Shown here in pieces: positions 30,383-45,293 of a stretch of 64,000 nt of DNA. The notes beneath the pieces are model-generated. The model saw only the letters and a program-made list of their open reading frames with translations. It had not been told where the DNA came from and did no database searches. The stretch's first letter is position 1; every line of letters starts with the position of its first letter. The position numbers were made by a program, and so were the translations under genes. The DNA is from Paenibacillus spongiae (GTDB taxonomy: Bacteria > Bacillota > Bacilli > Paenibacillales > Paenibacillaceae), in the NCBI RefSeq assembly GCF_024734895.1, contig NZ_CP091430.1:2746501-2810500 (forward strand), in the 5' to 3' direction.

Positions 30383-30458
30383 AGGATACGCGCGGATATC
30401 GTCGAACTTTGTCCACCCGCTCCGAGCCGCTCAATTCAATGGTTGAGGAGGGATGGAG

Positions 30459-31622
30459 ATGCATTTTCATTGTTCCGAGGAACTAACGTTAACCCGGACC
30501 ATGGTATCGGAGTTTGCAGCGAACAGAATCGCGCCGGGAGCGGGGCGGCGCGACGAAGACGGACGGTTCGACCGGAGACTGTTCGAAGAGATCGGCCTGC
30601 TGGGCCTGGCAGGCATCCCTTGGCCGGAGCGGTACGGCGGAGCGGGCAGCGATATGCTTACCTATTCGGTGGCATTGGAAGAAATATCGAAGGCATGCGC
30701 ATCGACCGGGGCTGTCTTGTCTGCGCATGTCGCCCTCTCGGCATGGCCGGTCTACATGTTCGGCTCCGAAGAGCTGAAGCAGGCGTACCTAGGCGCGATG
30801 GCAAGCGGTACGGTGCTGGGGGCGTGCTGTTTTCCCGTTTCCGGCTCTGGCGCTAATGGTTCCGGCAGCGGAATTACAGTTGGCTCGGAAGATGACGTAT
30901 TTATCCTGAATGGGAGCAGTTCCGATGTCGTGAATGCGGAGAACGCGGATATTTTCGTTGTATTCGCGCAAGAACAATCAGGCAGGCGGGGCAGAAGACG
31001 CAGCGCTTTCGTCGTGGAACGGGGAACGCCCGGACTTGCGCAGGGGAGGAACATCCAGGCTCTGGGCCTTCGATCATGCGGAGCGGGCGAAATCCGATTC
31101 ACTCAATGCCGAATACCGAAGCGAAACCTGCTTGGCAAAGCCGGGCAGGGAGGCAAGATTGCGGCATCCGTTCTGGATCTCGCTCATCTGAGCGCCTCGG
31201 CCCAAGCAGTCGGCATCGCGCAGGGGGCGCTGGATGCCGCCGCAGCTTATGCCAAGGAACGGAAGCAATTCGGCCAGCTGATCGGCCGTCATCAGGGGAT
31301 TATGTTTAAACTGGCGGACATGGCTGTCCAAATCGATGCTGCGCGGCTGCTTGCCCGCCAGGCGGCTTGGCGGCATCCAGCAGGCTTATCGCTGCGTAAG
31401 GAAGCCGCGCTCTCCTGGCAGTTTGCTTCTCGGACGGCGGTCGGCGTCACGATTGAAGCGGTTCAAGTGCTTGGCGGTTATGGCTACATGCAGGAATATC
31501 AGGTCGAGAGGCACATGAGGGATGCGAAGTGTCTGGAAGCCGGTTACGGAACGGGAGGAGGACTGGCGGGGCTTGCGGATGCGGCTCGGTGGATGCTTGC
31601 CGATTCCGAATCCGATTCATAA
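30459..31622 (+). CDS. Acyl-CoA dehydrogenase, divergent
   Basis: A 387-residue flavoprotein of the acyl-CoA dehydrogenase family, first gene of the mmg-type operon. The N-terminal helical domain, the beta-domain and the C-terminal ERKQFGQLIGRHQGIMFKLA segment are recognisable. The usual C-terminal Y-E-G-T-x-E-I motif that supplies the catalytic glutamate is replaced by AKCLEAGYGTGGG, with a tyrosine where the glutamate should be. The protein may be inactive, use a different base as in isovaleryl-CoA dehydrogenase, or act on an unusual substrate. The start is ATG 30459 after GAGGAGGG; an ATG at 30453 is too close to that site. A canonical paralogue lies at 33754. Confidence 0.85.
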   Translation: MHFHCSEELTLTRTMVSEFAANRIAPGAGRRDEDGRFDRRLFEEIGLLGLAGIPWPERYGGAGSDMLTYSVALEEISKACASTGAVLSAHVALSAWPVYMFGSEELKQAYLGAMASGTVLGACCFPVSGSGANGSGSGITVGSEDDVFILNGSSSDVVNAENADIFVVFAQEQSGRRGRRRSAFVVERGTPGLAQGRNIQALGLRSCGAGEIRFTQCRIPKRNLLGKAGQGGKIAASVLDLAHLSASAQAVGIAQGALDAAAAYAKERKQFGQLIGRHQGIMFKLADMAVQIDAARLLARQAAWRHPAGLSLRKEAALSWQFASRTAVGVTIEAVQVLGGYGYMQEYQVERHMRDAKCLEAGYGTGGGLAGLADAARWMLADSESDS

Positions 31623-31668
31623 GCTGGATTCGGCTCTCTAGCAGCATCCGATACCAGGAGGCGATGCC

Positions 31669-32844
31669 ATGCGCGAGACGGTTATTGTAAGCGGAGCAAG
31701 AACGGCATTCGGCAAATTCGGCGGGGTGTTCAAGGGCGTGAGTGCCGTACAGCTTGGGGCGGCGGCCATCGAAGGCGCGCTCCTGCGGGCCGGTGCCGAT
31801 TCCGCCAAAGTCGACGGCGTTCTGATGGGGATGGTTCTGCAGGCGAGCGCCGGTCAGATTCCGTCCAGGCAGTCTGCACGGCTAGCCGGCTTGGACTGGA
31901 ACGTCAAGACGGAAACGATTAATAAAGTTTGCGCTTCTGGCCTCAGGGCGATCACGCTGGCAGATCAAATCATCCGGGCTGGCGATGCGGATCTCATTGC
32001 CGCCGGCGGGATGGAAAGCATGAGCAGTACGCCATACGCCGTCCCTTCGGCCCGATGGGGCAGCCGGATGGGGGATGCCGGCCTGATGGATCTAATGATC
32101 CATGACGGCTTATGGTGCGCGTTCGAGAATGTGCATATGGCCGTTCATGGCAGCCGCAGCGCCGCAAAGCACGGAATCAGCCGGGAGGAACAGGACGAAT
32201 GGGCGCTGAGAAGCCATGTGCGCGCAGCGGCTGCCATGCGGCAGGGCATGTTCAAGGATGAGATCACTCCCTTCACTATCGCTGCACGCGCAGCGGTAAT
32301 CGATACCGACGAATGTCCCCGTTCCGATACGGATGCCGGCAAGCTTGCTTCACTGAAGCCGATCTTCGAGCCGAACGGGACGATAACCGCAGGCAATGCG
32401 CCCGGCGTGAACGATGGCGCGGCTGCTCTCATCGTCATGTCGAAGGATGCGGCGATGCAGGGCGGCCGCGAGCCGATGGCGTCCATTATCGGCCATGCGG
32501 CTATCGGCACCGAAGCGTCTGAGCTGGCCGATACGCCGGCGCTAGCGATCCGCAAGCTGCTGCAGCAAACCGGCTTCGCCTTGGAAGACATCGATCTGTT
32601 CGAGGTGAACGAAGCCTTCGCAGCGGTTGTTCTCATAACCGGACGACTGCTGGGATGGGACGAAGAGAAGGTAAACATCCATGGCGGGGCCATCGCATTA
32701 GGGCATCCCATCGGAGCCAGCGGCGCGCGAATCGTGCTTGGCTTGATCCACGCGCTCAGGCGCCGCGGAGGGGGACTCGGCATTGCAGCCATATGCAGCG
32801 GGGGTGCGCAAGGCGATGCCATATTGATCAGGGTGGATCCCTAG
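31669..32844 (+). CDS. mmgA: Acetyl-CoA acetyltransferase (thiolase, MmgA type)
   Basis: A 391-residue thiolase. The three catalytic sites are intact: Cys88 in KVCASGLRA, His near 350 in [13 protein letters not shown], and the C-terminal Cys near 380 in CSGGAQGD. It either condenses two acetyl-CoA to acetoacetyl-CoA or cleaves it; in the mmg operon it handles short-chain acyl-CoA. ATG 31669 has AGGAGGCG seven bases upstream. It lies 46 bases behind the first acyl-CoA dehydrogenase and 18 before the 3-hydroxybutyryl-CoA dehydrogenase, matching mmgA-mmgB-mmgC order of B. subtilis with an additional dehydrogenase in front. Confidence 0.92.
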
Positions 32845-32862
32845 CTTAAGGCCGAGGTGAGG

Positions 32863-33717
32863 ATGGTGAACATTCGAGCATTGACGATCGTTGGTGCCGG
32901 ACAAATGGGCAGCGGTATTGCCCAGACGGCTGCGCAGAGCGGCATATCGGTTATGTTATACGACTCCGATCCGGAAGCCGGGAAGCGGGGGCTGGCTTCC
33001 ATCGGCCATCAATTATCCCGTTCCGTTGACAAAGGGCGCATGACCAAGGATGAGATGGAGCGAACGCTGGCTCTCGTCCGGTTATCTGCGAAGCTGGAGG
33101 ATGCCCGTCCTTCAGACATGGTCATTGAGGCGGCGCCTGAGGACAGGGCGATCAAACGGTCCATATTCCGGGAGCTGGACCGCATCTGCTTGCCGCAAAC
33201 CATCTTGGCGACGAACACATCGTCGCTGCCGATTACCGATCTTGCGGCGGCGACACATCGGCCGGAACGGGTAATCGGCATGCATTTCATGAACCCCGTT
33301 CCGGTCATGCCGCTTGTCGAAATTATCCGGGGACTGGCGACTTCATCCGATGTGCTGGCAAGCGTCCGCGCATTGGCGCAAGCGATGGGGAAAACCGCGG
33401 TGGAGGTGCGCGACTTCCCCGGCTTCGTATCCAACCGCATTCTGATGCCGATGATTAATGAAGCGGTCTATACCGTCTACGAAGGGGTAGCGTCACCCGA
33501 AGCGGTAGACCAAGTAATGAGGCTGGGCATGAATCATCCGATGGGGCCGCTTGCGCTCGCCGACTTCATTGGATTGGACACGTGTCTTGCGATCATGGAG
33601 ACGCTGCATGAAGGCTTCGGCGACTCGAAGTACAGACCGTGCCCGCTGCTGCGCCAATATGTCAGGGGCGGCTGGCTGGGACGCAAGACAGGACGGGGCT
33701 TCTATGTATACGAGTAA
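32863..33717 (+). CDS. mmgB: 3-hydroxybutyryl-CoA dehydrogenase (MmgB type)
   Basis: A 284-residue NAD-dependent dehydrogenase. The N-terminal Rossmann motif GAGQMGSGIAQTAA (about residues 10-23), the HFMNPVPVMPLVEI catalytic His segment (about 145) and the C-terminal GWLGRKTGRGFYVYE ending are characteristic. It interconverts acetoacetyl-CoA and 3-hydroxybutyryl-CoA. The start is uncertain: ATG 32863 is given, but GTG 32857 or GTG 32866 are possible because GAGGTGAGG overlaps this region. It sits between the thiolase and the second acyl-CoA dehydrogenase in the same operon. Confidence 0.9.
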   Translation: MVNIRALTIVGAGQMGSGIAQTAAQSGISVMLYDSDPEAGKRGLASIGHQLSRSVDKGRMTKDEMERTLALVRLSAKLEDARPSDMVIEAAPEDRAIKRSIFRELDRICLPQTILATNTSSLPITDLAAATHRPERVIGMHFMNPVPVMPLVEIIRGLATSSDVLASVRALAQAMGKTAVEVRDFPGFVSNRILMPMINEAVYTVYEGVASPEAVDQVMRLGMNHPMGPLALADFIGLDTCLAIMETLHEGFGDSKYRPCPLLRQYVRGGWLGRKTGRGFYVYE

Positions 33718-33753
33718 TGGGGGAAGCGGACAGACGAAAAGGAGTGTCGGACG

Positions 33754-34920
33754 TTGGAGCTCCGGTTGACGAAGGATCAGGAGGCGCTGCGGCGGGCGGT
33801 TCGGCAATTCGCGAAGAAGGAGATCGCCCCTGCCGTGTCCCGGATGGAATCCGAGGGCGAATTCCCCGGCGAGCTCATTCGGGCGATGGCGCAGAGCGGC
33901 TTGATGGGTATTCCCATCTCCCGGGAGTTGGGCGGCGCAGGCGCGGATTTCATCTCGTATATCGCCGCGATTCATGAAATCTCGATCGTAAGCGCAGCGG
34001 TCGGCGTGATTCTGTCCGTCCATACTTCGGTCGGCACGCTGCCGATTCTGCAGTACGGCACGGATGAACAGCGGTCGGTTTATGGTCGCATGCTGGCTTC
34101 CGGCAAAGGGCTGGGCGCATTCGCCTTGACCGAGCCGCATGCGGGCTCGGATGCCGCCTCGATACGCACGACGGCGGTCCGCAGCGGACAGGAGTATCTG
34201 TTGAACGGAACGAAAATGTTCATTTCGAATGCGGGCGCAGCAGATACTTATATCGCTTTTGCCGTGACGGATCCTAGGAAGGGCTCCCGCGGCATTACAG
34301 CTTTTATTATCGATAAGGATACGGAGGGGCTCCGGATCGGCAGAAGGGAGAAGAAGATGGGGCTCCACGGATCGAATACATGCGAGCTGATCTTTGATCA
34401 AATGGCCGTTCCCGCAAGCCGCAGGCTGGGGGGCGAGGGCGAGGGATTCGCGATTGCGAAGGGAACGCTCGACGGCGGCAGAATCGGCATCGCCGCTCAA
34501 GCGCTCGGGATCGCGGAAGCGGCCCTAATGGAAGCGAAGAACTGGATGCTGCCGAAGACAGCATTGTCATCGCCGGCGAAGCAGCCGCTAGGCAAGCGGC
34601 AAATGAGACAGACATCTGATCGAGAGCGGCTGGCGGAAATGGCCGCCCAGGTTGAGGCTGCGCGGCTGCTCGTCTACCGCGCGGCGTGGATGCGTCAAGC
34701 AGGGATGCCCTGTACGAAGGAGGCATCGATGGCTAAGATGTTCGCTTCGGATACGGCGGTTGCGGTTTCGGGGGAAGCGGTACGGCTGCTGGGTCAGCGG
34801 GGATGCTCCAAGGAGCTTCCGGCCGAACGATTCTACCGGGATGCCAAAGTGACGCAGATTTATGAGGGCACGAACGAAATACACCGGATTGTCATTGGGA
34901 ACAAGCTGCTTAGCGAGTGA
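33754..34920 (+). CDS. mmgC: Acyl-CoA dehydrogenase (MmgC type)
   Basis: A 388-residue flavoprotein with the canonical catalytic end motif: [21 protein letters not shown]. The glutamate of YEGT is the base that abstracts the alpha-proton. An unusual charged insertion replaces the normal QFGKPI-x-FQ dimer-contact segment (about residues 268-290, [12 protein letters not shown]-type). It oxidises short-chain acyl-CoA. Start TTG 33754 follows AAAAGGAG. It follows mmgB by 36 bases and precedes methylisocitrate lyase by 20, with the same layout as the B. subtilis operon. Confidence 0.9.
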
Positions 34921-34940
34921 TCGATAAAGGCGGTGATGAT

Positions 34941-35831
34941 ATGAATCAATCTCCGGGCAAGCGGTTTCGCGAGGCATTAGAGGAAGAAAAGCCGCTTCAG
35001 GTGGCGGGCACGATCAATGCTTATACGGCCATTATGGCGGAGCGCGTCGGGTTTCGCGCCCTGTATATTTCCGGCGCAGGTGTCGCGAACGCTTCATATG
35101 GTCTTCCGGATCTCGGGATAACTACCCTGCAGGATGTGCTGGAGGATGTCCGCCGCATTACGAGCGTTACGGAGCTGCCGGTGCTTGTGGATGCGGATAC
35201 CGGATTCGGCGGAGCCCTGCAGATTGCGCGCACGATCCGGCAGATGAGCAGGGCGGGAGCGGCGGGCGTCCATATTGAGGATCAGGTGATGGCCAAGCGC
35301 TGCGGACACCGGCCGAATAAGGCGATCGTCGGCAAAGGGGAGATGGTCGACCGGATTAAAGCGGCGGCGGATGCGAGGGACGAACCGCAGTTCGTCATCA
35401 TGGCCCGTACCGATGCGCTGGCCGTGGAAGGGATGGAAGCGGCCATCGACAGGGCTTGCGCCTGCGTCGAAGCGGGGGCCGATATGATTTTTCCGGAGGC
35501 GGTTCTCAATCTGGAGCAGTATAGGCGCTTTACCGAGGCCGTGGGCGTACCGGTGCTGGCGAATATAACGGAATTCGGGAAGACGCCGTTATTTACGGTG
35601 GAGGAACTGGGGGGCGTAGGCGTCCGGATAGCGCTGTATCCATTGTCGGCTTACCGTGCCATGTGCGCGGCTGCTCTGCAGGTATACCGTCTCGTCCGAT
35701 GGGAAGGAACGCAGAAGAATGCCGTCGGGCTTATGCAGACGCGGGATGAGCTGTACGACTTCCTGCATTATTACGATTACGAGCAGAAGCTGGATCAGCT
35801 GTTCGGGGCGGATCGGAGGGATCTGCCGTGA
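34941..35831 (+). CDS. prpB: Methylisocitrate lyase
   Basis: A 296-residue enzyme of the isocitrate lyase/PEP mutase family. It carries the catalytic KRCGH loop (about residues 115-119), the metal residues in DADTGFGG (about 75-82) and MARTDA (about 152). It splits 2-methylisocitrate to pyruvate and succinate, the last step of the methylcitrate cycle for propionyl-CoA. ATG 34941 (AAAGGCGGTGAT upstream) is preferred over GTG 34917, which overlaps the dehydrogenase stop. It overlaps the methylcitrate synthase start by four bases, so the two are translationally coupled. Confidence 0.93.
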
Positions 35832-36946
35832 CGAATAACAGAACCGGCGGGCTCGCTGACGTGATTGCCGGGCAAACCGGGATTTCAACAGTCGGCAAAC
35901 TTGGCAGAGGCCTTACTTACCGCGGTTATTCCATCCATGATTTGGCGGCTAACGCAGCATTTGAAGAGACCGCGTACTTGCTTATCTACGGCAAGCTGCC
36001 CAATGAAACGGAGCTGCGGCTGTACCGGTCCAAGCTCGCCGGTTTGAGGGCATTGCCGGACAGTTTGCGCGTCATATTGGAACGGCTCCCGGACACAACC
36101 CATCCGATGGATGTGCTGCGAACCGGCATATCCGCCCTTGGAGCCTTCGAGCCGGAAGAGGGGCGAACGCAAGCCGATATCGCCGATCGGCTAATGGCTT
36201 GCTGCGGGGCGATACTGCTGTATTGGCATCATTATCATACGAACGGAACACGAATCGATACGGAAGCGGGCGGCGACAGCATCGCCGGCCATTTCCTGCA
36301 TCTGCTTCACGGTTCCCGGGCAAGCGAGCTTCATGAGAAGGCGATGGACGTTTCGTTGACCCTCTACGCGGAGCATGAATTCAATGCATCGACTTTCGCG
36401 GCTCGCGTAACGGCATCGACGTTATCCGACTTTTACTCGGCCATTGCGACCGGCATCGGGACGCTCCGGGGACCGCTGCATGGAGGTGCGAACGAAGCGG
36501 CGATGGAGCTTATCGACGCCTTCCATAATCCCGACGACGCCGAGCATGCAATCCTTCGGATGCTGGCGTCAAAGCAGCGGATCATGGGCTTCGGTCACCG
36601 GGTCTACACGGTTTCGGATCCGAGATCCGATATTATTAAGGAATGGTCCAGTCGGCTCTCCTCGGATGCCGGGGATATGAGATTGTATGTCGTATCCGAA
36701 CGGATCGAGCAGGTCATGCGGCAGGAGAAGCAGCTTTTTGCGAATTTGGACTTTTACAGCGCTTCAGCTTACCGGTTCATGGGCATACCGACCAAATTCT
36801 TTACGCCGGTCTTCGTCCTCGCTCGTCTCAGCGGATGGTCTGCCCATATTATGGAGCAGCGAGCAGCCAACCGGCTTATCCGGCCAAGTGCCTCTTATTC
36901 CGGTCCTGAGCCGAGAAGCTGGCTTCCGATTGATCAGCGTACCTGA
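35828..36946 (+). CDS. mmgD: 2-methylcitrate synthase
   Basis: A 372-residue citrate synthase-fold enzyme. The active-site histidines are visible in [10 protein letters not shown] (about residue 218) and GFGHRVYT (about 258), with an Asp near [14 protein letters not shown] (about 305). It condenses propionyl-CoA and oxaloacetate to methylcitrate. The start is GTG 35828, whose last two bases and following A form the prpB stop (GTGA). The usual C-terminal RPxA-x-Y-x-GP-x-R ending is present. It is followed by a 101-base gap with a hairpin and then PrpD. Confidence 0.92.
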
Positions 36947-36968
36947 TCGCTCTTGATGCCGGCGATAA

Positions 36969-36995
36969 TTGCGGCAAAGCCAAGATAGGCCGCAA
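36969..36995 (+). other. Intercistronic hairpin between mmgD and mmgE
   Basis: TTGCGGC (36969-36975) and GCCGCAA (36989-36995) pair around a 13-base loop; no T run. It may stabilise or partly end the transcript. Confidence 0.35.
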
Positions 36996-37047
36996 ACAAG
37001 AACTCAGCAAATTCTAGCTGCGCATAACGTTAGGAAGGAGTTCCCTC

Positions 37048-38490
37048 ATGACGATGCCGATCAGCAACGACAGGCCGGAGCCCGATCAGCTGCTTGCGGC
37101 GATTGCCGCATACGTTGCGGAACGTGAGATTGTGAGCCCGGAAGCATATGAGACAGCGCGTTTATGCCTGATGGATACGCTCGGCTGCGGGCTGCTTGCG
37201 CTCCGCTTTCCCGAATGCGCCAAGCATCTGGGTCCGATTGTGCCGGGAACCATCGTACCTGACGGGCCACGCGTGCCCGGTACGATGATTCAGACGGATC
37301 CGGTCACCGCGGCATTCAGCATCGGCTGCATGATCCGTTGGCTTGATTACAACGATACATGGCTGGCTGCCGAGTGGGGGCATCCGTCCGATAATTTGGG
37401 CGGTATTCTTGCCGCTGCCGATTACGTGAGCAGGAAGAACGTGAATGAAGGCAGGTCCCCGCTTACGATGCAGGATGTTCTGACGGCGATGATCAAGGCT
37501 CACGAAATTCAAGGCGTCCTCGCGCTCGACAACAGCTTTAACCGTGTCGGGCTCGACCATGTCATTCTGGTGAAGGTCGCCACGACGGCTGTCGTAACCG
37601 GGCTGCTCGGCGGTACGAAAGAAGAAATCGCGAATGCCGTCTCGCATGCCTGGATCGACGGTCATCCGCTGCGCACCTACCGGCATGCGCCGAACACGGG
37701 CCCGCGCAAGTCCTGGGCTGCGGGCGATGCGACAAGCCGGGGGGTCAGGCTGGCTATTATGGCGATAAAGGGGGAAGCCGGCTATCCTTCCGCATTGACG
37801 GCACCGGCCTGGGGCTTCCAGGATGCGCTGTTCCAGGGCAAACCGTTGGCTGTGAGCCGGCCATTCGGAACCTATGTGATGGAGAACGTGCTGTTCAAGG
37901 TTTCTTTTCCTGCGGAATTTCATGCTCAGACGGCTGTCGAATGCGCCCTGCAGCTGCATCCGCTTGTGAAGGACCGGCTGGCGGATATCGACCGCATTCT
38001 GCTTATGACCCATGAATCCGCATTGCGGATTATCGATAAGACAGGACCGCTTCACAATCCGGCGGATCGCGATCACTGCCTGCAGTATATGGTAGCCGTC
38101 GCGCTGCTCTACGGTACGTTGACGGCGGATCATTATGAGGATTCCGCCGCAGGCGATCCTCGGATCGATGAGCTTAGGAAGCGGATGGTCACAGCCGAAG
38201 AAAAGCGCTATTCCGTCGATTACCTGGATGAGACGAAGCGCTCGATTGCGAATGCGATCCAAGTGATGTTCCAGGACGGCACGGCGACGGATAAGATCGA
38301 AGTGGAGTATCCGCTCGGGCACCGGCGCAGACGTATGGAGGCCATTCCGCTGCTGGAGGAGAAATTCGAAACGAATCTGAGAAGCCGTCTGCCGGCCAAA
38401 CAAGCGGGCCAAGTTCTGGAGCTCATCGCTAGCGGCGACCGACTGGCAAGGATGCCGGTTCATGCATTTACCGATCTGTTTGCGATCTAA
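37048..38490 (+). CDS. mmgE: 2-methylcitrate dehydratase (MmgE/PrpD)
   Basis: A 480-residue MmgE/PrpD-family enzyme, typical in length. It shows the [11 protein letters not shown]-terminal motif (about residue 44), the [20 protein letters not shown] substrate loop (about 101) and the [14 protein letters not shown] motif (about 292). It removes water from 2-methylcitrate to give 2-methylaconitate, or performs both steps to methylisocitrate. ATG 37048 has AGGAAGGAG ten bases upstream. It is 56 bases before the E1-alpha fusion gene. Confidence 0.94.
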
Positions 38491-38546
38491 GTGAGGGGCT
38501 GTTCGTTTGATGATACAACCAGATCTAAAGTGAAGGTGGGCTTCGC

Positions 38547-40451
38547 ATGTCCAACCAGACGAATCCCCCGAAGCACCGGCTGCTCGGGTTAACGGACGAT
38601 CAGGCGCTGGCTATGTACCGCTGCATGCTGCTAGCCCGTAAATTGGACGAACGGCTTCACCTGCTGCAGCGGGCGGGCAAGATCAACTTTCACGTATCCG
38701 GCATCGGACAGGAAACGGCGCAAGCTGCAGCGGCCTTCGCGCTTGGGGAAGAGATGAACTATTACTTGCCTTATTACCGCGATTACGCGTTCGTCTTGGC
38801 TGTCGGGATGACGACCAAGGAGCTTATGCTCTTCGCCTTCTCCAAGGCGGAGGATCCGAACAGCGGCGGCAGGCAAATGACCGGACATTTCGGCAGCAAG
38901 CGGCTCCGTATCGTAACGAGCTCCAGTCCTGTGGGCACGCAGCTGCCTCACGCGGCGGGTATCGCCCTGACGATGAAGATGAAGCGGCAGGAACGGTTAA
39001 CCTTCGTTACCTTCGGCGAAGGCGCCAGCAGCCAGGGGGATGTGCACGAGACGTTTAATTTCGCGGGCATCAACCGGCTGCCGGTTATATTCATGTGCGA
39101 GAACAATCAATACTCGATTTCGATTCCTGCACGCAAGCAGGTTGCCGGCAGTGTATCCGGACGCGCCGCAGGATACGGTTTTCCGGGCATTCTCGTCGAC
39201 GGAAGCGATGCGCTTGAGGTCTACCGTGTAACGAAGGAGGCCAAGGAGCGGGCGCTGCGGGGCGAGGGGCCAACCTTGATCGAAGCGAAAATGTACCGGA
39301 TATCGCCGCATTCCACGTCGGACGACGATATGGTCTACCGATCGAAGGAAGAGGTGGAGCTGAACAAGAAGAACGATGGCATCCTGAAGCTTCGCAGCTA
39401 TCTGATGGAATTAGGCATTCTGAATGAGGAGCTTGAACGCTCGTATGCCGAAGCCATTATGAACGAGTTAAACGAGTCTACCCGATATGCGGAGAAGGCG
39501 GCCTATCCGAAGCCCGAGGATGCGCTTCTTCATGTCTACGACAGCAAGGAGCCTCTGCCGAAGCCGAGCGGCGCAATGATCGATCGGAAGGTTCAAGAGG
39601 CTGGAGACGAAGTGATCCCGTATTACTCGCCGGCTGTAATGCGCCTTGCCGCCGCAAACGGACTCGATCTGCGAACCTTTAAGGGGAGCGGTCTGAACGG
39701 CCGCGTAACGAGGAAGGATGTACGTGGCGAGATCCGCGTTCGTGAAGCTAAGACCGCATCGAATGCCAACGAACAGGCAAAGACGATACTAGGGACAGAT
39801 ATAGTATCTCCCCGGCCGGTTCGGACCGCAGCCGGCAAGGATTCAGCGACCATGCTGGTCGAGGCGGATGTCACCAATCTGGTTCAGCTGCTGCGAAAAC
39901 ATGAAGAAGGCTTCTCGCGTAAGGAAGGCGTGAAGCTGACTTATGTCCCCTTCTACTTGAAGGCGGTCGTGAATGGTTTGAAGGAATGTCCGGCTATGAA
40001 CGCAGTCTGGGAAGCCGGTTCAATCGCGATGAAGAAAGAGATTCATATCACGCTCGTATCGGATACCGGGGTGTCGACGGTCATGGAACATGCGGATGGA
40101 AGGAGCGTTGCAGGATTCGCGATCGAGCTAGGGAGAGAGACGAACGGGAAGAGTTGCGTAAATCCTCGCCAAGCGGCGGATAGGAGCGGAACCTTCGCCC
40201 TCCATGCCGCAGGTTCAGATGGAGCGGTGACCGCCCATCCGTCCATCCCAGATTCGCATACGGCTGTTCTATATATCGGTCCGGTTGTCCAAAGGCCGGT
40301 AATCAAGCAGGATACGATTGGCGGACGATCTATCGTTCATCTTTGTTTAACGCTGAATCAGCAAGCAGCCGGTCATTCTGTCTGCACTGCGTTTCTGAAC
40401 AGCGTGAAGCAAACGCTGGAACGGTATGATTCGAGTACGCTGCTCTATTAA
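38547..40451 (+). CDS. Fusion of 2-oxoacid dehydrogenase E1-alpha with subunit-binding and degenerate E2 domains
   Basis: A 634-residue protein. Residues 1 to about 330 are E1-alpha of branched-chain 2-oxoacid or pyruvate dehydrogenase type: the thiamine diphosphate/Mg motif is GEGASSQGD (about 156), with FMCENNQYSIS following, and the regulated loop HSTSDDD (about 254-260) is of the branched-chain type. Residues about 356-396 are a peripheral subunit-binding domain (YSPAVMRLAAANG ... GLNGRVTRKDV). Residues about 430-634 resemble an E2 acyltransferase domain, but the catalytic DHRxxDG is replaced by NQQAAGH (604-610), the opening helix is missing and the GTFTITNIG core is GTFALHAAG. No lipoyl domain and no E1-beta are present here or in the neighbouring genes. 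It probably arose by deletion within a bkd-like operon. Whether it makes an active enzyme is unclear. Confidence 0.85.
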   Translation: MSNQTNPPKHRLLGLTDDQALAMYRCMLLARKLDERLHLLQRAGKINFHVSGIGQETAQAAAAFALGEEMNYYLPYYRDYAFVLAVGMTTKELMLFAFSKAEDPNSGGRQMTGHFGSKRLRIVTSSSPVGTQLPHAAGIALTMKMKRQERLTFVTFGEGASSQGDVHETFNFAGINRLPVIFMCENNQYSISIPARKQVAGSVSGRAAGYGFPGILVDGSDALEVYRVTKEAKERALRGEGPTLIEAKMYRISPHSTSDDDMVYRSKEEVELNKKNDGILKLRSYLMELGILNEELERSYAEAIMNELNESTRYAEKAAYPKPEDALLHVYDSKEPLPKPSGAMIDRKVQEAGDEVIPYYSPAVMRLAAANGLDLRTFKGSGLNGRVTRKDVRGEIRVREAKTASNANEQAKTILGTDIVSPRPVRTAAGKDSATMLVEADVTNLVQLLRKHEEGFSRKEGVKLTYVPFYLKAVVNGLKECPAMNAVWEAGSIAMKKEIHITLVSDTGVSTVMEHADGRSVAGFAIELGRETNGKSCVNPRQAADRSGTFALHAAGSDGAVTAHPSIPDSHTAVLYIGPVVQRPVIKQDTIGGRSIVHLCLTLNQQAAGHSVCTAFLNSVKQTLERYDSSTLLY

Positions 40452-40502
40452 TCGGCAGATGGATATGAACCGTCAACTCTCAAGAATAGCATAAGACAGA
40501 AT

Positions 40503-40540
40503 GAACAGCTCACGAGGCGCTGCAGCTTAGGGAGCTGTTC
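40503..40540 (+). terminator. Terminator-like hairpin after the operon
   Basis: GAACAGCTC (40503-40511) pairs with GAGCTGTTC (40532-40540), then TTCTATATTT. The T run is weak. Confidence 0.6.
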
Positions 40541-40636
40541 TTCTATATTTGGATCATGCCGGTTGTAATCGATTTTTCTGCATCGTATCCATCTATTATG
40601 CTGTAAAAGGATATGTTCAACCCTCTGTCGATATAT

Positions 40637-40693: not shown

Positions 40694-41941
40694 ATGCTCA
40701 TGGATGATCATCTGCTTGCCATGCATGGCGGGCCGCGAAGCAAAACCGTTCCGTTCGGTACGGGACGTAGGTTCGGAGACGAGGAACTGCTGGAGCTGAA
40801 GGAAGCGCTCGAACAGAATACGCTGTTCTATCATTACGGCCAGAAGGTCAAGACCTTCCTGACCCGATTTAATGAGCTGTATGGCGTTCCTTACAGCGTC
40901 GCTGCATCATCGGGAACGGCTGCGATTCATATCGCGCTCGGCGCAGCCGGAGTCAGTGTCGGCGATGAGGTGATTACGAGTCCGATAACGGATCAAGGCA
41001 CGGTCGTAGGCATCCTGTACCAGAATGCGATCCCGGTATTCGCCGATTTGGACCCGCACACGTATAACATGGACCCGGTATCGATCGAATCGCGGATCAC
41101 CTCCCGGACGAAAGCGATCGTTGCGGTTCACCTGGCCGGGAATCCGTGCGAAATGGATCCGATTATGGATATCGCACGCAAATACGGCTTGAAAGTGATC
41201 GAAGATTGCGCGCAAAGCTACTTGACGCGATATCGAGGCAGGCTGGCCGGTACGATCGGGGATTACGGCTGCTTCAGCACGAATGACTTTAAGCACATCT
41301 CGACCGGTGACGGCGGCATCGTAACGGTTAATTCCGGCCGCGAAGCAGACTATCATACCGCACATGCCTTCGCGGACAAAAACTATCGCCGGCTCGGCCA
41401 AGACGTCATCCGCGATTTGCACGGAATAGCGCCGAATTACCGGATGACGGAGCTTCAAGGCGCAGTCGGCATCGCGCAATTGAGCAAGCTTCCGGGAATT
41501 TGCAGCTCGCGGAGCCATCACGGGCAGCGGCTGACATGGGCGATCGCGGGGCTGAACGGGATAACCGCCCCCCAGGTCAATGCGGGTAACGAAAGCACCT
41601 ATTGGTTCTATATGCTGCGAGTGGATGAAGGAGTTCTGGGCGCTTCAAGGGAGGAATTTAGCGAGGCGCTGGCGCAAGAAGGCATTCCTAACGTTCCCGG
41701 TTATATTCCGGAGGTCGTCTACATGCAGCCGTTGTTCCAGAAGCGCGAAGCCTATGCAGGCTCTCACTTTCCGTTCGATCTGACGGGAATCACATACGAA
41801 AGAGGGATCTGCCCGACTGCGGAGGGAATTTTACGTACGGCGGTGAGACTATCGATCAGCGAGTTTTATACGGATCAGGATATCGACGAGATGGGAGCGG
41901 GGATCCGCAAGGTAGCAAATTACTTCTATAGCCGGAAGTAG
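40694..41941 (+). CDS. DegT/DnrJ/EryC1/StrS-family aminotransferase
   Basis: A 415-residue PLP aminotransferase of the sugar aminotransferase family. The PLP lysine is in STNDFKHISTGDGG (about residue 200); the Asp of EDCAQSY (about 172) holds the pyridine ring. It transfers an amino group, usually from glutamate, to a keto-sugar or keto-inositol. ATG 40694 has AGGAGGTGG close upstream; ATG 40700 is an alternative. It starts behind a palindromic operator. Its neighbour is the convergent GntR regulator at 42000. The absence of partner sugar-nucleotide genes suggests use in sugar or inositol catabolism rather than in surface polysaccharide synthesis, which is inference. Confidence 0.88.
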   Translation: MLMDDHLLAMHGGPRSKTVPFGTGRRFGDEELLELKEALEQNTLFYHYGQKVKTFLTRFNELYGVPYSVAASSGTAAIHIALGAAGVSVGDEVITSPITDQGTVVGILYQNAIPVFADLDPHTYNMDPVSIESRITSRTKAIVAVHLAGNPCEMDPIMDIARKYGLKVIEDCAQSYLTRYRGRLAGTIGDYGCFSTNDFKHISTGDGGIVTVNSGREADYHTAHAFADKNYRRLGQDVIRDLHGIAPNYRMTELQGAVGIAQLSKLPGICSSRSHHGQRLTWAIAGLNGITAPQVNAGNESTYWFYMLRVDEGVLGASREEFSEALAQEGIPNVPGYIPEVVYMQPLFQKREAYAGSHFPFDLTGITYERGICPTAEGILRTAVRLSISEFYTDQDIDEMGAGIRKVANYFYSRK

Positions 41942-41999
41942 ATAGAGAGGGGCTGCGAAGAAAATCCTCCGCAGCCCGTACCTTCATCAGGCTGCCGAG

Positions 42000-43382
42000 T
42001 CAAGGCTGCGCATGAAGCAGGTCCAGAATTCGATTCGTCGTCGCTTCGGCGGACTCCAGTCCGAGCCAGAACAAACCCATCTCGATATCCATTTCTTCCA
42101 TGAGATCGAAGTCCGCGAATACCTCCGACAAGAAATAGCTGTTCTCGAATCTTTCGTTGGCGATATGGAGCGAATCGAGCGTCGGTTTGTCCCACATGCG
42201 AGCATTGACCGCTTGCTGGACCGAGAGAAAGCGCCGATCCCTGCTTATTGCCTCCTGAAGCGAATCGCCGAGCGTAAATTGGAGAAACTGCAGCGCAAGT
42301 TCCCGGTCGCCGCAGTCTGCGGGAACCATGAAAGCATTCGCGATGATCAGCGTCGATTTGTTATCCCCGAATGGAAGCGCGGCAACCTGGGGCTCGAAAT
42401 CCATCCCTTCGTTCAGCCAGCCGGCCAGCTCAATGGAGGTGGTGAGCACCATCCCTGCCTTCCCGTGAATGAATCCTTCCGACGAAGGGCGGTGGATGGG
42501 AGACAGCTTGGCGATCCGGTAGCGGTACAGCAGATCATGAAGAAAGGTCAGCGTTCTTAAGACAGCCTGGCGGTCGGCCGCTCCTTCAAAGCTGACGCCG
42601 TTCTGCAGGGCGAACACCGTCCACCGGCTGAAGGCAGAGGACAGGGATAGTCCGTATTGATCCGTGATGCCGTCTCCATCCGTATCGACGGTCAGCTTCT
42701 GTGCTGCCCGGATGAAATCTTCCCGGGTCCAGTCCGGCTTCGGAGCGGATAATCCATACTTCTCGAATAGCCCCGGATTATAAGCCAAATACACGGGCGA
42801 GAAGGTAACCGGGGCAGCGATGATCGAATCCTCGCGGCGAAAGGCGTTCATAATCCGGGGATATTGCTTGGCGAAGCTGCTTGCGAGCGGTTCTCGCAGA
42901 TCGAGGAATGACTCGGGATGTTCAACCTCGAAGCACTGCCGGTCGGATATGAAGATAAGGTCAGGCTGAAGACCCAGCTCCGTGCTTGCCTGAACCGAAT
43001 CCCAGAAATCGAGGACAGGCAGGCTTAAATATTTCACTTCGATCTGGGGATTCTCCAGCTCATAGGCTTGAATCATCATCTGCATGCAGTGATCCGCAAA
43101 GTATGAAGGGGCAGTGCCCACGATGCGAAGCGTCCGGCGAGGGTTGTGCGGAACCAGAACATCGGGGGAGACGATCGTGCCTTGTCCCATTTTCTTCACG
43201 ATCAGGCCTTCCTGCAGCAATCGGTCCAATGACTTGCGGACCGAGGTACGGCTCATTCCGTAATGCTTGCACAGCTCATTCTCGGATAACAGATATTGGC
43301 CGGGCTTGATGTAGCCCGATAAGATTTGTTCGCGTAAAATATTCGCTAATTTGGAATACCGGAATTCGTTCTCTCTTCTCAT
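42000..43382 (-). CDS. GntR-family regulator fused to an ABC solute-binding-protein domain
   Basis: A 460-residue cytoplasmic protein. Residues 1-75 form a GntR winged helix-turn-helix (LSENELCKHYGMSRTSVRKS, then GLIVKKMGQGTIVSP). Residues about 85-455 resemble a type 1 extracellular sugar-binding protein (SBP_bac_1), with no signal peptide. It also has DTDGDGITDQYGL (about 217-229), a loop typical of sugar-binding lipoproteins. This makes a repressor whose effector sensor is a captured binding protein, comparable in logic to SgrR and AraR but from different families. It is divergent from the gene at 43593 and convergent with the DegT gene. A shared 14-bp element before both suggests its operator. 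ATG 43382 is the start, with the HTH beginning at once. Confidence 0.87.
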   Translation of the reverse strand: MRRENEFRYSKLANILREQILSGYIKPGQYLLSENELCKHYGMSRTSVRKSLDRLLQEGLIVKKMGQGTIVSPDVLVPHNPRRTLRIVGTAPSYFADHCMQMMIQAYELENPQIEVKYLSLPVLDFWDSVQASTELGLQPDLIFISDRQCFEVEHPESFLDLREPLASSFAKQYPRIMNAFRREDSIIAAPVTFSPVYLAYNPGLFEKYGLSAPKPDWTREDFIRAAQKLTVDTDGDGITDQYGLSLSSAFSRWTVFALQNGVSFEGAADRQAVLRTLTFLHDLLYRYRIAKLSPIHRPSSEGFIHGKAGMVLTTSIELAGWLNEGMDFEPQVAALPFGDNKSTLIIANAFMVPADCGDRELALQFLQFTLGDSLQEAISRDRRFLSVQQAVNARMWDKPTLDSLHIANERFENSYFLSEVFADFDLMEEMDIEMGLFWLGLESAEATTNRILDLLHAQP

Positions 43383-43524
43383 TCTTCATTCATCCAATCA
43401 CGCTAGTAGTCGTTGAATCCATGAATTGAACAAAACCCGCCGTGCATGCATACTGTTCGGACGAACGGTTAGCCGCACCGCATACATCGTTCCTATTATA
43501 TAGCAGCTCGCTGGACGATAAAAG

Positions 43525-43538
43525 TACAAGTATGATAC
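43525..43538 (+). promoter_or_regulatory. Putative GntR operator upstream of the GATase/deacetylase-like gene
   Basis: TACAAGTATGATAC, matching TACAAGTTAGATAC before the DegT gene at 12 of 14 positions. It overlaps TATGAT (43531-43536), which may be the -10 of this promoter. Confidence 0.5.
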
Positions 43539-43592
43539 CTATTACGGACCGACCGCGGAACAATCCCGGTACGCGAAAGGATGAAGCATGAA

Positions 43593-45293
43593 ATGAGAAT
43601 GGCTCATGTTGGCGTTCTGCTCGACCGAAAGGCCGCAGAGCGCCGTTGGCAATACGGACTGAACTCGTTTGAATACTATATGGAAGAAGTGCTGCGGCAT
43701 GCAGGAGTTCCGTTCGAACGTCTGGAACATATCGAACTCCTCCCCGAGCGTTCCTACGATATCGTCATTGCGGCACTCGCTCCCAACGATGCGGCTGCGG
43801 CTTCCCTGCTGTGGTCATACGCCGAACAGGGGGGAACTGTTATCGCCTGTGCCGGACTGAATGCGATGGCCGCAAGGCTCGGTGCCGTTCCGCACCGGTC
43901 GTCCGGCCCGGGTTATGCGTCGTTCGTGGATTGGCGAGCCATCCCGGTTCGTTATTCGCAAGCGGCACCATGGAAGACGGAACCCGGCAATCCCAATTTG
44001 ATTCAAGAAACCGGCATGCTGATGAAGGATCATCCTGCGGGAGCCGCTCAGGGACCGGCACGGCAGACGTTCCGGATCGGCAAGGGGCTGCTGGAACGAT
44101 GGGCCATCGATATATGCGGCACGATCGTTGAACTGCAGCAGGGGACGGGTCCGGTATTGGACGACGGTGAACCGGCACCGGATGGAACGGCGGCGGTTAA
44201 CGAAGGGATATTGAAGGCCGATGACCGGATTGCGATGGATTGGGAGCACGACAGGCTTCTGACGGAAACAGGTTCGCCATACTTCGCTTATCCCTACGCC
44301 GATTATTGGCGTGATCTGTTCATCGGACATCTGCTGCAGTCGGTCCTGTCTCTGGAGCTGACGCTGCCTGTCGTAGGCTGCTGGCCAGATGGCATAGAAC
44401 GGGTCGCCATGATATCCCATGACAGCGACCTTAATCAGGATATCCATGCCGAGTCGGCGCTGGAGCAGCTGGGCGAATGCGGCATCCGCTCCACCTGGTG
44501 CATGATTGAGCCGGGTTATTCTCCGGGCATTTATGACCTTGTGAAGGCGGCCGGCCATGAGCTTGCCTTCCATTACAATGCGCTGGATGAGCAGAACGGG
44601 AGGTGGGCAGAGGACGAGTTCGAGAGACAGCTCGACTGGCTGAAGCAAGCGGCTAACCTGCCAGCCGTTACCTCGAACAAGAATCACTACACCCGTTTCG
44701 AAGGCTGGGGGGAGCTGTTCGAATGGTGCGAGAAGGGCGGCGTGCAGAGCGATCAGACAAGAGGTCCGAGCAAGAAAGGGAATGTCGGATTTATATTCGG
44801 AACGTGCCGTCCTTACTTTCCGATCGCCTGGGCGGGAGAGAACAACCGGATGTACGATGTGCTCGAAATCGGATTTCTGACGCAGGATCTGGATTTGACG
44901 ACACAATGGTCGGACAGCAGCGTAATCAACCCTTTCCTGGATGAGGTCGCCCGGATGAACGGTGTCGCTCACTTTCTGTTTCACCAGGTTCATATTCACA
45001 ACTCGGCGTCCGTGCGCGCTGCTCTGCGGCGGGTGGTAGAGGAAGCGCGGAGCCGCGGCTTCACCTTCTGGACCGGGGAGCAAATCAACCGTTGGGAGCG
45101 CAGCCGGCGCAACATATCGCTTGACATGGCAGCGGACGGTACGGTCATCGTATCAGGGGAAGCGCCGGAAGGCGCAGTCATATGGATACCGGTTCCTGAT
45201 GGATATGAACCGTCTGAAGACGAGGAGCTGGCTGATCAATACGGCGTGTCTTGCCGTAAGGAGTCGGCGTCAGGACGGGTCAAGCAAGCTTGA
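43593..45293 (+). CDS. Large protein with glutamine amidotransferase-like and polysaccharide deacetylase-like domains
   Basis: A 566-residue cytoplasmic protein. The N-terminal part (about 1-110) has alternating strands and helices and a GGTVIACAG turn like class I glutamine amidotransferase-like proteins. The middle (about 270-480) resembles a NodB-type deacetylase: MISHDSDLNQD (Asp pair, His), HELAFHYN (His pair) and NKNHYTRFEGW (His) could bind a metal. A C-terminal about 60 residues look like a small beta domain. I cannot name a substrate; a role in sugar or amino-sugar modification fits the DegT aminotransferase nearby. The start is uncertain: ATG 43593 follows AAAGG by 12 bases, while ATG 43581 sits directly on it and ATG 43599 is also possible. 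Shares an operator-like element with the DegT gene. Confidence 0.65.
   Translation: MRMAHVGVLLDRKAAERRWQYGLNSFEYYMEEVLRHAGVPFERLEHIELLPERSYDIVIAALAPNDAAAASLLWSYAEQGGTVIACAGLNAMAARLGAVPHRSSGPGYASFVDWRAIPVRYSQAAPWKTEPGNPNLIQETGMLMKDHPAGAAQGPARQTFRIGKGLLERWAIDICGTIVELQQGTGPVLDDGEPAPDGTAAVNEGILKADDRIAMDWEHDRLLTETGSPYFAYPYADYWRDLFIGHLLQSVLSLELTLPVVGCWPDGIERVAMISHDSDLNQDIHAESALEQLGECGIRSTWCMIEPGYSPGIYDLVKAAGHELAFHYNALDEQNGRWAEDEFERQLDWLKQAANLPAVTSNKNHYTRFEGWGELFEWCEKGGVQSDQTRGPSKKGNVGFIFGTCRPYFPIAWAGENNRMYDVLEIGFLTQDLDLTTQWSDSSVINPFLDEVARMNGVAHFLFHQVHIHNSASVRAALRRVVEEARSRGFTFWTGEQINRWERSRRNISLDMAADGTVIVSGEAPEGAVIWIPVPDGYEPSEDEELADQYGVSCRKESASGRVKQA

Follow-up and report, generated by a model that had tools for sequence, protein, structure and literature searches.

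A Paenibacillus methylcitrate operon ends in a fusion of E1-alpha with a catalytically dead E2 core, a possible accessory subunit of BCKDH

At the end of an operon for the methylcitrate cycle, the 64-kb stretch of Paenibacillus spongiae DNA analyzed here (the window) carries a gene that joins two parts of the branched-chain 2-oxoacid dehydrogenase (BCKDH), an E1-alpha and an E2 core without its catalytic motif, on one chain. This raises the question of what role such a protein could have beside methylcitrate-cycle genes. A preliminary description of the locus had seen in it either a decaying relic of a bkd operon, joined in frame by deletion, or a new scaffold protein coupled to propionyl-CoA metabolism.

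The open reading frame is uninterrupted and encodes 634 aa. The features of the gene and its flanks are the following.

38520..38546, + strand: leader and ribosome-binding site (GTGAAGGTGGG) ahead of the fusion start codon
38547..40451, + strand: fusion gene (634 aa), E1-alpha, peripheral-subunit-binding domain and catalytically dead E2 core
38568..39548, + strand: E1-alpha domain, residues 8-334 (motifs, Pfam, AlphaFold2 model)
39618..39725, + strand: peripheral-subunit-binding domain (PSBD; E3_binding), residues 358-393 (Pfam PF02817, 2.7e-11)
39837..40448, + strand: dead E2 core (CAT-fold) domain, residues 431-634 (Pfam, motif alignment, structure match)
40498..40545, + strand: possible terminator hairpin 3' of the fusion (consensus match only; not above shuffle background)

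Pfam matched E1_dh at residues 24-324 (4e-87), E3_binding at 358-393 (3e-11; 2.7e-11 for PF02817) and 2-oxoacid_dh at 434-628 (1e-22), which confirms the order of E1-alpha, binding domain and E2 domain given in the preliminary description; there was no Pfam match to a lipoyl domain (Biotin_lipoyl) in the protein. The first part has what defines a branched-chain E1-alpha, namely the E1_dh fold, the TPP/Mg motif (GEGASSQGD, 157-165) and the catalytic His (His255) on the HSTSDD loop (HSTSDDD, 255-261), together with ENNQYSIS at 185-192. The E2 part has a predicted CAT-type core fold and neither the DHRxxDG motif nor the N-terminal lipoyl domain of a functional E2: NQQAAGH replaces DHRxxDG at 604-610, a loss already noticed in the first reading, and TFALHAAG is found where TFTxNNTG is expected. 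The C-terminal tail TLLY is retained. The promoter and terminator scan around the fusion yielded nothing above shuffle background.

The fusion is the last gene of a same-strand run and starts 56 bases past the PrpD stop. The genes upstream of it, named by sequence resemblance, are listed below.

30453-31622, + strand: ACAD1 (acyl-CoA dehydrogenase)
31669-32844, + strand: thiolase
32857-33717, + strand: 3-hydroxyacyl-CoA dehydrogenase (HBD)
33754-34920, + strand: ACAD2
34917-35831, + strand: PrpB
35828-36946, + strand: PrpC
37048-38490, + strand: PrpD

This gene order (30453..38490) is kept in Paenibacillus mendelii, P. prosopidis and 30-odd more genomes of the family. Propionyl-CoA arises from the breakdown of valine and isoleucine, and the link to propionyl-CoA metabolism that had been suggested for the fusion is supported. 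When E1-beta, E3, full BkdB and IcmF were searched by tblastn against the window, no further complex component was obtained, in agreement with the earlier statement that E1-beta, a lipoyl domain and E3 are all missing from the window. Past the fusion, at 40694-45293, there are genes for an aminotransferase of the DegT/DnrJ type and for a protein of 570 aa that includes a polysaccharide-deacetylase-like stretch, and between them one for a divergent GntR-like/solute-binding regulator (names by resemblance); these three genes are conserved in P. mendelii and not in P. prosopidis.

The same fusion was found in P. mendelii (L037), with 73% identity over the full length and at the same operon end, and in P. 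prosopidis (L038), with about 55% identity and again at the end of the same operon, which in all three species reads ACAD-thiolase-HBD-ACAD-prpB-prpC-prpD. These three fusions were the only ones among the 396 Paenibacillaceae genomes searched, and an evenly drawn order-level sample contained no additional fusion. The equivalents of DHRxxDG are NHHMHDP in P. mendelii and DQRILDE in P. prosopidis. The preliminary description had allowed for a sequencing assembly error and for a fusion confined to this strain. The former was rejected, because the same frame recurs, intact, in independent assemblies of two further species, and the latter is contradicted by the same two relatives. Owing to the fast evolution of the E2 half, a query with the C-terminal half at an E-value of 1e-50 matched nothing beyond the window and P. 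mendelii; the whole-protein search and operon context recovered the fusion of P. prosopidis and the solo genes described below.

We also used PrpC as a marker of this operon type, which was present in 48 of the 396 family genomes, and then read the region past PrpD. Downstream of PrpD, three genomes have the fusion, three have a lone E2-core gene and 40 have neither; in two (G033 and G332) the contig ends there, and these were left out, so that 46 operons were readable. The solo dead-E2 (dE2) genes encode proteins of 226 aa (L147), 220 aa (L149) and 205 aa (L153), in which DRRAVYE, DSRLLNE and DARVQNE replace DHRxxDG. None of them has an E1-alpha, and L147, the one that was scanned with Pfam, is also without a PSBD and a lipoyl domain. 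Pfam found the PSBD in the fusions of the window and P. mendelii, and did not detect it in the P. prosopidis fusion. In the tree of dE2 domains, the solo and fused forms join (97/89), and the fusion of P. prosopidis has L147 and L149 as its sisters (94/84); the placement of L153, on a long branch, is uncertain. This last gene (reverse strand, genome G012), a lone dE2 past PrpD, is far more diverged than the other dE2s and may have a separate origin or be nearer to decay.

The sequence AAGGTGGG precedes the start codon in all three fusions and in solo L147 and L149, and was missing past PrpD from the ten dE2-less operons compared. The P. prosopidis fusion and L147 have a common leader, GCCAAAGGTGGGRATyrCC, ahead of the start codon, and the first codons of L147 and L149 encode MSD, as do those of the P. 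mendelii fusion. The ribosome-binding site and start codon of the fusion are thus shared by these two solo genes, and the simplest reading is that in L147 and L149 an in-frame excision would have removed E1-alpha from a fusion. Given that dE2 also occurs alone at the same spot in three genomes, the dE2 domain, rather than E1-alpha, is the common denominator of the six genomes. With the PSBD apparently lost in P. prosopidis and E1-alpha lost in the solo forms, no part but dE2 is indispensable.

An AlphaFold2 model of the fusion (mean pLDDT 73) matched BCKDH E1-alpha 1umb_A with a Z of 36.0 (rmsd 2.9, 319 aligned), and its residues 432-634 matched the Listeria BCKDH E2 core 3mae_B with a Z of 25.9 (rmsd 2.4, 200 aligned). 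The model of the solo L147 dE2 (pLDDT 81, pTM 0.81) matched 3mae_B (Z 27.0, rmsd 5.7, 212 aligned) and many E2 cores, and its matches also contained the E3BP model 6h60 (Z 23.6, rmsd 2.8, 202 aligned), with the dE2 fold predicted in both models being partly imposed, because both alignments included E2 homologues.

Whether the fusion frame is conserved under purifying selection had been posed as a check in the preliminary description, and the Nei-Gojobori dN/dS between the window and P. mendelii, rounded to 0.07 for E1-alpha and 0.23 for E2, was purifying: it was 0.072 for E1-alpha, 0.093 for the PSBD and 0.233 for the E2 domain, compared with 0.04-0.18 for the upstream neighbor genes, so that the E2 half evolves faster than its neighbors. 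Beyond this pair, only pN and pS are given because dS was saturated; for the E2 domain of more distant pairs, pN was 0.30-0.48 versus a pS of 0.68-0.87. When neutral evolution of the E2 part was simulated over the same synonymous distance as observed, there were on average 7.5 stops, none of 2000 runs was stop-free, and amino-acid identity was at most 25%, versus the 62% observed. Judged from these substitution patterns, both fusion halves are under purifying selection. The frames are intact in all six dE2 genes (three fusions and three solo genes). The reading as a ‘decaying relic’ is not supported, since three species share the fusion and both of its halves are under purifying selection.

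The two halves have kept their conserved residues to different degrees. Of 129 near-invariant E1-alpha positions, the three fusions keep 122, 121 and 126; of 121 such positions in E2, they keep 63, 66 and 64, whereas the ordinary E2s tested keep 115-121. In E2, the losses concentrate at three places. Two are the active-site stretches, and the third is the N-terminal segment TPxRxxIAxxMxxSxxEIPH; the window and P. mendelii lack this segment, and P. prosopidis has it in degraded form. All six dE2 domains retain the C-terminal tail, in which hydrophobic residues are followed by Tyr.

In other Paenibacillaceae, related operons contain IcmF and then separate genes for E1a', E1b' and lipoyl-E2' (with DHRILDG), together with thiolase and 3-hydroxyacyl-CoA dehydrogenase. 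Such a second BCKDH, embedded in the operon, was seen at L045, L051, L058, L066, L072, L079, L086 and L098; IcmF itself (Pfam MM_CoA_mutase, MeaB and B12-binding) was directly read in L045, L058 and L066 only. In a maximum-likelihood tree of 97 E1-alpha sequences, the branch separating canonical bkd from the fusions and IcmF-type copies had an SH-aLRT of 98 (quick search). In the E2-core tree, canonical bkd was likewise set apart from the fusions and IcmF-type copies (100/99), and the three fusions grouped together (99/95). Therefore, both fusion halves derive from the operon-embedded second BCKDH, and an origin in the canonical bkd operon was rejected by both trees, although raw BLAST identity opposes them by putting canonical E1a ahead by a point or two. 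Of the earlier proposal that a bkd operon was the starting point, the in-frame joining of a three-gene E1a-E1b-E2 set remains probable, but its source was not canonical bkd. An mmg-adjacent canonical bkd operon, which had been invoked for this purpose, does not fit, as bkd is intact elsewhere in the genome and the trees point to the second BCKDH near IcmF.

The second BCKDH beside IcmF (L058 from P. sedimenti, L045, L066 and others) thus holds the nearest relatives of both fusion halves, in a similar operon with ACAD, thiolase, HBD and sometimes prpCDB. It differs in having three intact genes, an active-looking E2 (DHRILDG), a lipoyl domain and IcmF, whereas the fusion lineage has lost E1-beta and the lipoyl domain, and IcmF is absent from P. 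mendelii and was not found by a search of the window genome. The most economical history would be that E1b', the lipoyl part of E2' and IcmF were lost, and that E1a' was joined in frame to the remaining E2'. In P. contaminans (L052:4714-8993), PrpB-PrpC-PrpD-IcmF is followed by an orphan E1a' with no E1b' or E2' adjoining, and a complete bkd operon lies on a separate contig; this arrangement would fit the pairing of such an E1-alpha in trans.

We also analyzed the rest of the host genome, a single contig of 7.6 Mb. It has a complete canonical bkd locus at 2.41 Mb, consisting of LpdV, E1a, E1b and lipoyl-E2 with DHRILDG, and two PDH-like sets. The sole copy of a BCKDH-type E1-beta is that of the canonical bkd operon. 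A second E1-beta for a private complex was accordingly rejected, the others in the genome being the two PDH-like ones. In G000 and G008, the bkd E1-beta is the only one of BCKDH type, and a canonical bkd locus is present in all six genomes with a dE2 domain. Canonical BkdAA and BkdB belong to the same families as the fusion, whose E1-alpha is 64% identical to its own BkdAA and whose E2 part is 32-39% identical to its own BkdB. However, the canonical proteins come from separate genes with E1-beta, a lipoyl domain and an active E2, and the fusion falls outside the canonical clade in both trees.

Reasoning from sequence, we propose, with a probability of roughly 0.45, that the fusion is a pseudo-E2 anchor, accessory to the canonical BCKDH, and that its E1-alpha pairs with BkdAB in trans. 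The protein would be expressed together with the methylcitrate-cycle genes as an accessory subunit of the canonical complex. Its dE2 would enter or cap the BkdB E2 core by the usual trimer or C-terminal-tail contacts and would act there as a non-catalytic, E3BP-like anchor, and the fused E1-alpha with BkdAB would form a hybrid E1, from which acyl groups may be passed to BkdB lipoyl domains in trans. As an outcome, BCKDH activity or substrate range would be tuned while propionyl-CoA from valine and isoleucine is burned; in the solo forms, in which E1-alpha would have been lost later, the core-modifying role alone would remain. Such tuning would be plausible next to methylcitrate-cycle genes, given that propionyl-CoA is a product of valine and isoleucine breakdown. 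It is also in keeping with the toxicity of 2-methylcitrate build-up in B. thuringiensis (PMC12891235).

The accessory-subunit reading is supported by the same fusion at the same place in three species, by both trees, by the purifying dN/dS and by the counts of near-invariant positions kept in the two halves. It is also supported by the solo dE2 at the same spot, the C-terminal Tyr that is kept, the canonical bkd in six of six genomes, the bkd E1-beta as the sole one of BCKDH type, and the orphan E1a' of P. contaminans. The rarity of these genes (3 fusions in 396 genomes and 3 solo genes in 46 readable operons) and the fast E2 half count against it. In addition, the N-terminal core segment near the subunit-exchanged strand is missing or degraded, so that co-trimerization of dE2 is not assured. 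The apparent loss of the PSBD in P. prosopidis, the loss of E1-alpha in the solo forms and the E2 homologues that bias the fold evidence also weigh against this reading.

Slow decay is one alternative, which we consider unlikely. A second, redundant BCKDH would then be eroding from three genes to a fusion or orphan E1a, to a dE2 remnant and to nothing, and the fusion would be a step on this path, each product being near-useless and the frames being left intact by chance or by a recent loss of constraint. All of these stages do exist: the full set (L058, L045), orphan E1a' (L052), fusion (window, L037, L038), E2 only (L147, L149, L153) and nothing (40 of the 46 readable operons), and about half of the near-invariant E2 positions are gone. 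However, six frames are intact, the E1-alpha dN/dS of 0.07 equals that of the core neighbors, pN in E2 is far under pS even for forms that are 31-54% identical, and the neutral simulation reproduced neither the open frames (0/2000) nor the identity (at most 25% versus 62%). That selection has kept the fusion or the lone dE2 intact in each of six species suggests that this is a building block without catalysis, and not a dying gene.

Such a building block could also be a brake, which we regard as rather unlikely. A dE2, alone or fused, would insert into BkdB cores and lower BCKDH output, thereby limiting the formation of propionyl-CoA and 2-methylcitrate, and the fused E1-alpha would also sequester E1-beta. 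The domain has kept its fold and tail without the acyltransfer residues, it always lies beside prpD in a genome with intact bkd, and its outlasting of E1-alpha and the PSBD suits a role that needs no catalysis; the toxicity of 2-methylcitrate in B. thuringiensis (PMC12891235) is in keeping with this. Nevertheless, all catalytic motifs persist in the E1-alpha of the fusions, under strong constraint, and a pure sink would have no use for them. An independent scaffold or ligand-binding protein, whose CAT-fold domain binds acyl-CoA or PrpC/PrpD with no contact to BCKDH, would agree with the strict prpD linkage, the altered active-site and N-terminal segments and the dispensable PSBD, but it is improbable, since the residues retained by all six include those of the C-terminal tail and E2 core helices and there is no sign of a new conserved pocket.

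Among known systems, the accessory-subunit reading most readily recalls the E3-binding protein (E3BP; protein X, PDHX) of the eukaryotic PDH complex, an E2 paralogue with an inactive CAT-type core and a PSBD. E3BP is believed to be located in or on the core of E2, and the reason for its inactivity is still described as unclear (PMC10156792). The fusion shares the inactive E2-homologous core, but not the E2-like topology with a lipoyl domain: E1-alpha stands in place of the latter, the PSBD goes undetected in one fusion and in solo L147, the complex is a bacterial BCKDH and not PDH, and incorporation into the core is putative. The actinobacterial E2o-E1o fusion OdhA/KGD also combines E1 with an E2 core in a single chain that has no lipoyl domain, and OdhA relies on lipoyl groups that a different complex supplies in trans (PMC10415282). 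It is, however, defined by an N-terminal active E2o and a full-length E1o, whereas our fusion has the reverse order, contains the alpha half alone from a heterotetrameric E1, has a dead E2 and arose independently from BCKDH. The fusion belongs to neither class, and it would work most like E3BP, loosely. No E1-alpha/E2 fusion or bacterial dead-E2 paralogue was found in the open literature, which is weak evidence of absence.

A wider and tentative picture is that of a methylcitrate-operon pseudo-E2 born by E1-alpha fusion, with hybrid or braked BCKDH cores that match branched-chain breakdown to propionyl-CoA removal. If this is true, bacteria would have evolved their own counterpart of E3BP independently, and the case would show that an inactive core domain can outlive the enzyme to which it was once fused. 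A bacterial lineage appears to have arrived at a dead E2 independently, one that would have been fused to E1-alpha at first and freed later. Given that ancestor, intermediate and derived states are all sequenced, a non-catalytic core subunit becomes testable in tractable Paenibacillus, and branched-chain oxidation would be tied to the methylcitrate cycle through gene linkage.

Several observations on the related loci were made in passing. The operons at L058 (14-13987), L066, L045, L086 and L098 comprise ACAD, (prpC, prpD, prpB), IcmF, a second complete BCKDH, thiolase and HBD, and those at L058 and L066 also have a gene resembling cobalamin adenosyltransferase. Operons of the L058 type look like a dedicated route from 2-oxoisovalerate through isobutyryl-CoA to butyryl-CoA, apart from bkd. 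At L122 (G097) and L127 (G078), the E1-alpha frames run on for ~700 codons with one internal TAA, and E1-alpha may be in frame with the sequence after it across that stop. Finally, the contigs of L084 and L101, titled Bacillus sp. FJAT-28004 and FJAT-26390, group within the Paenibacillus bkd clade, and these names are probably wrong.
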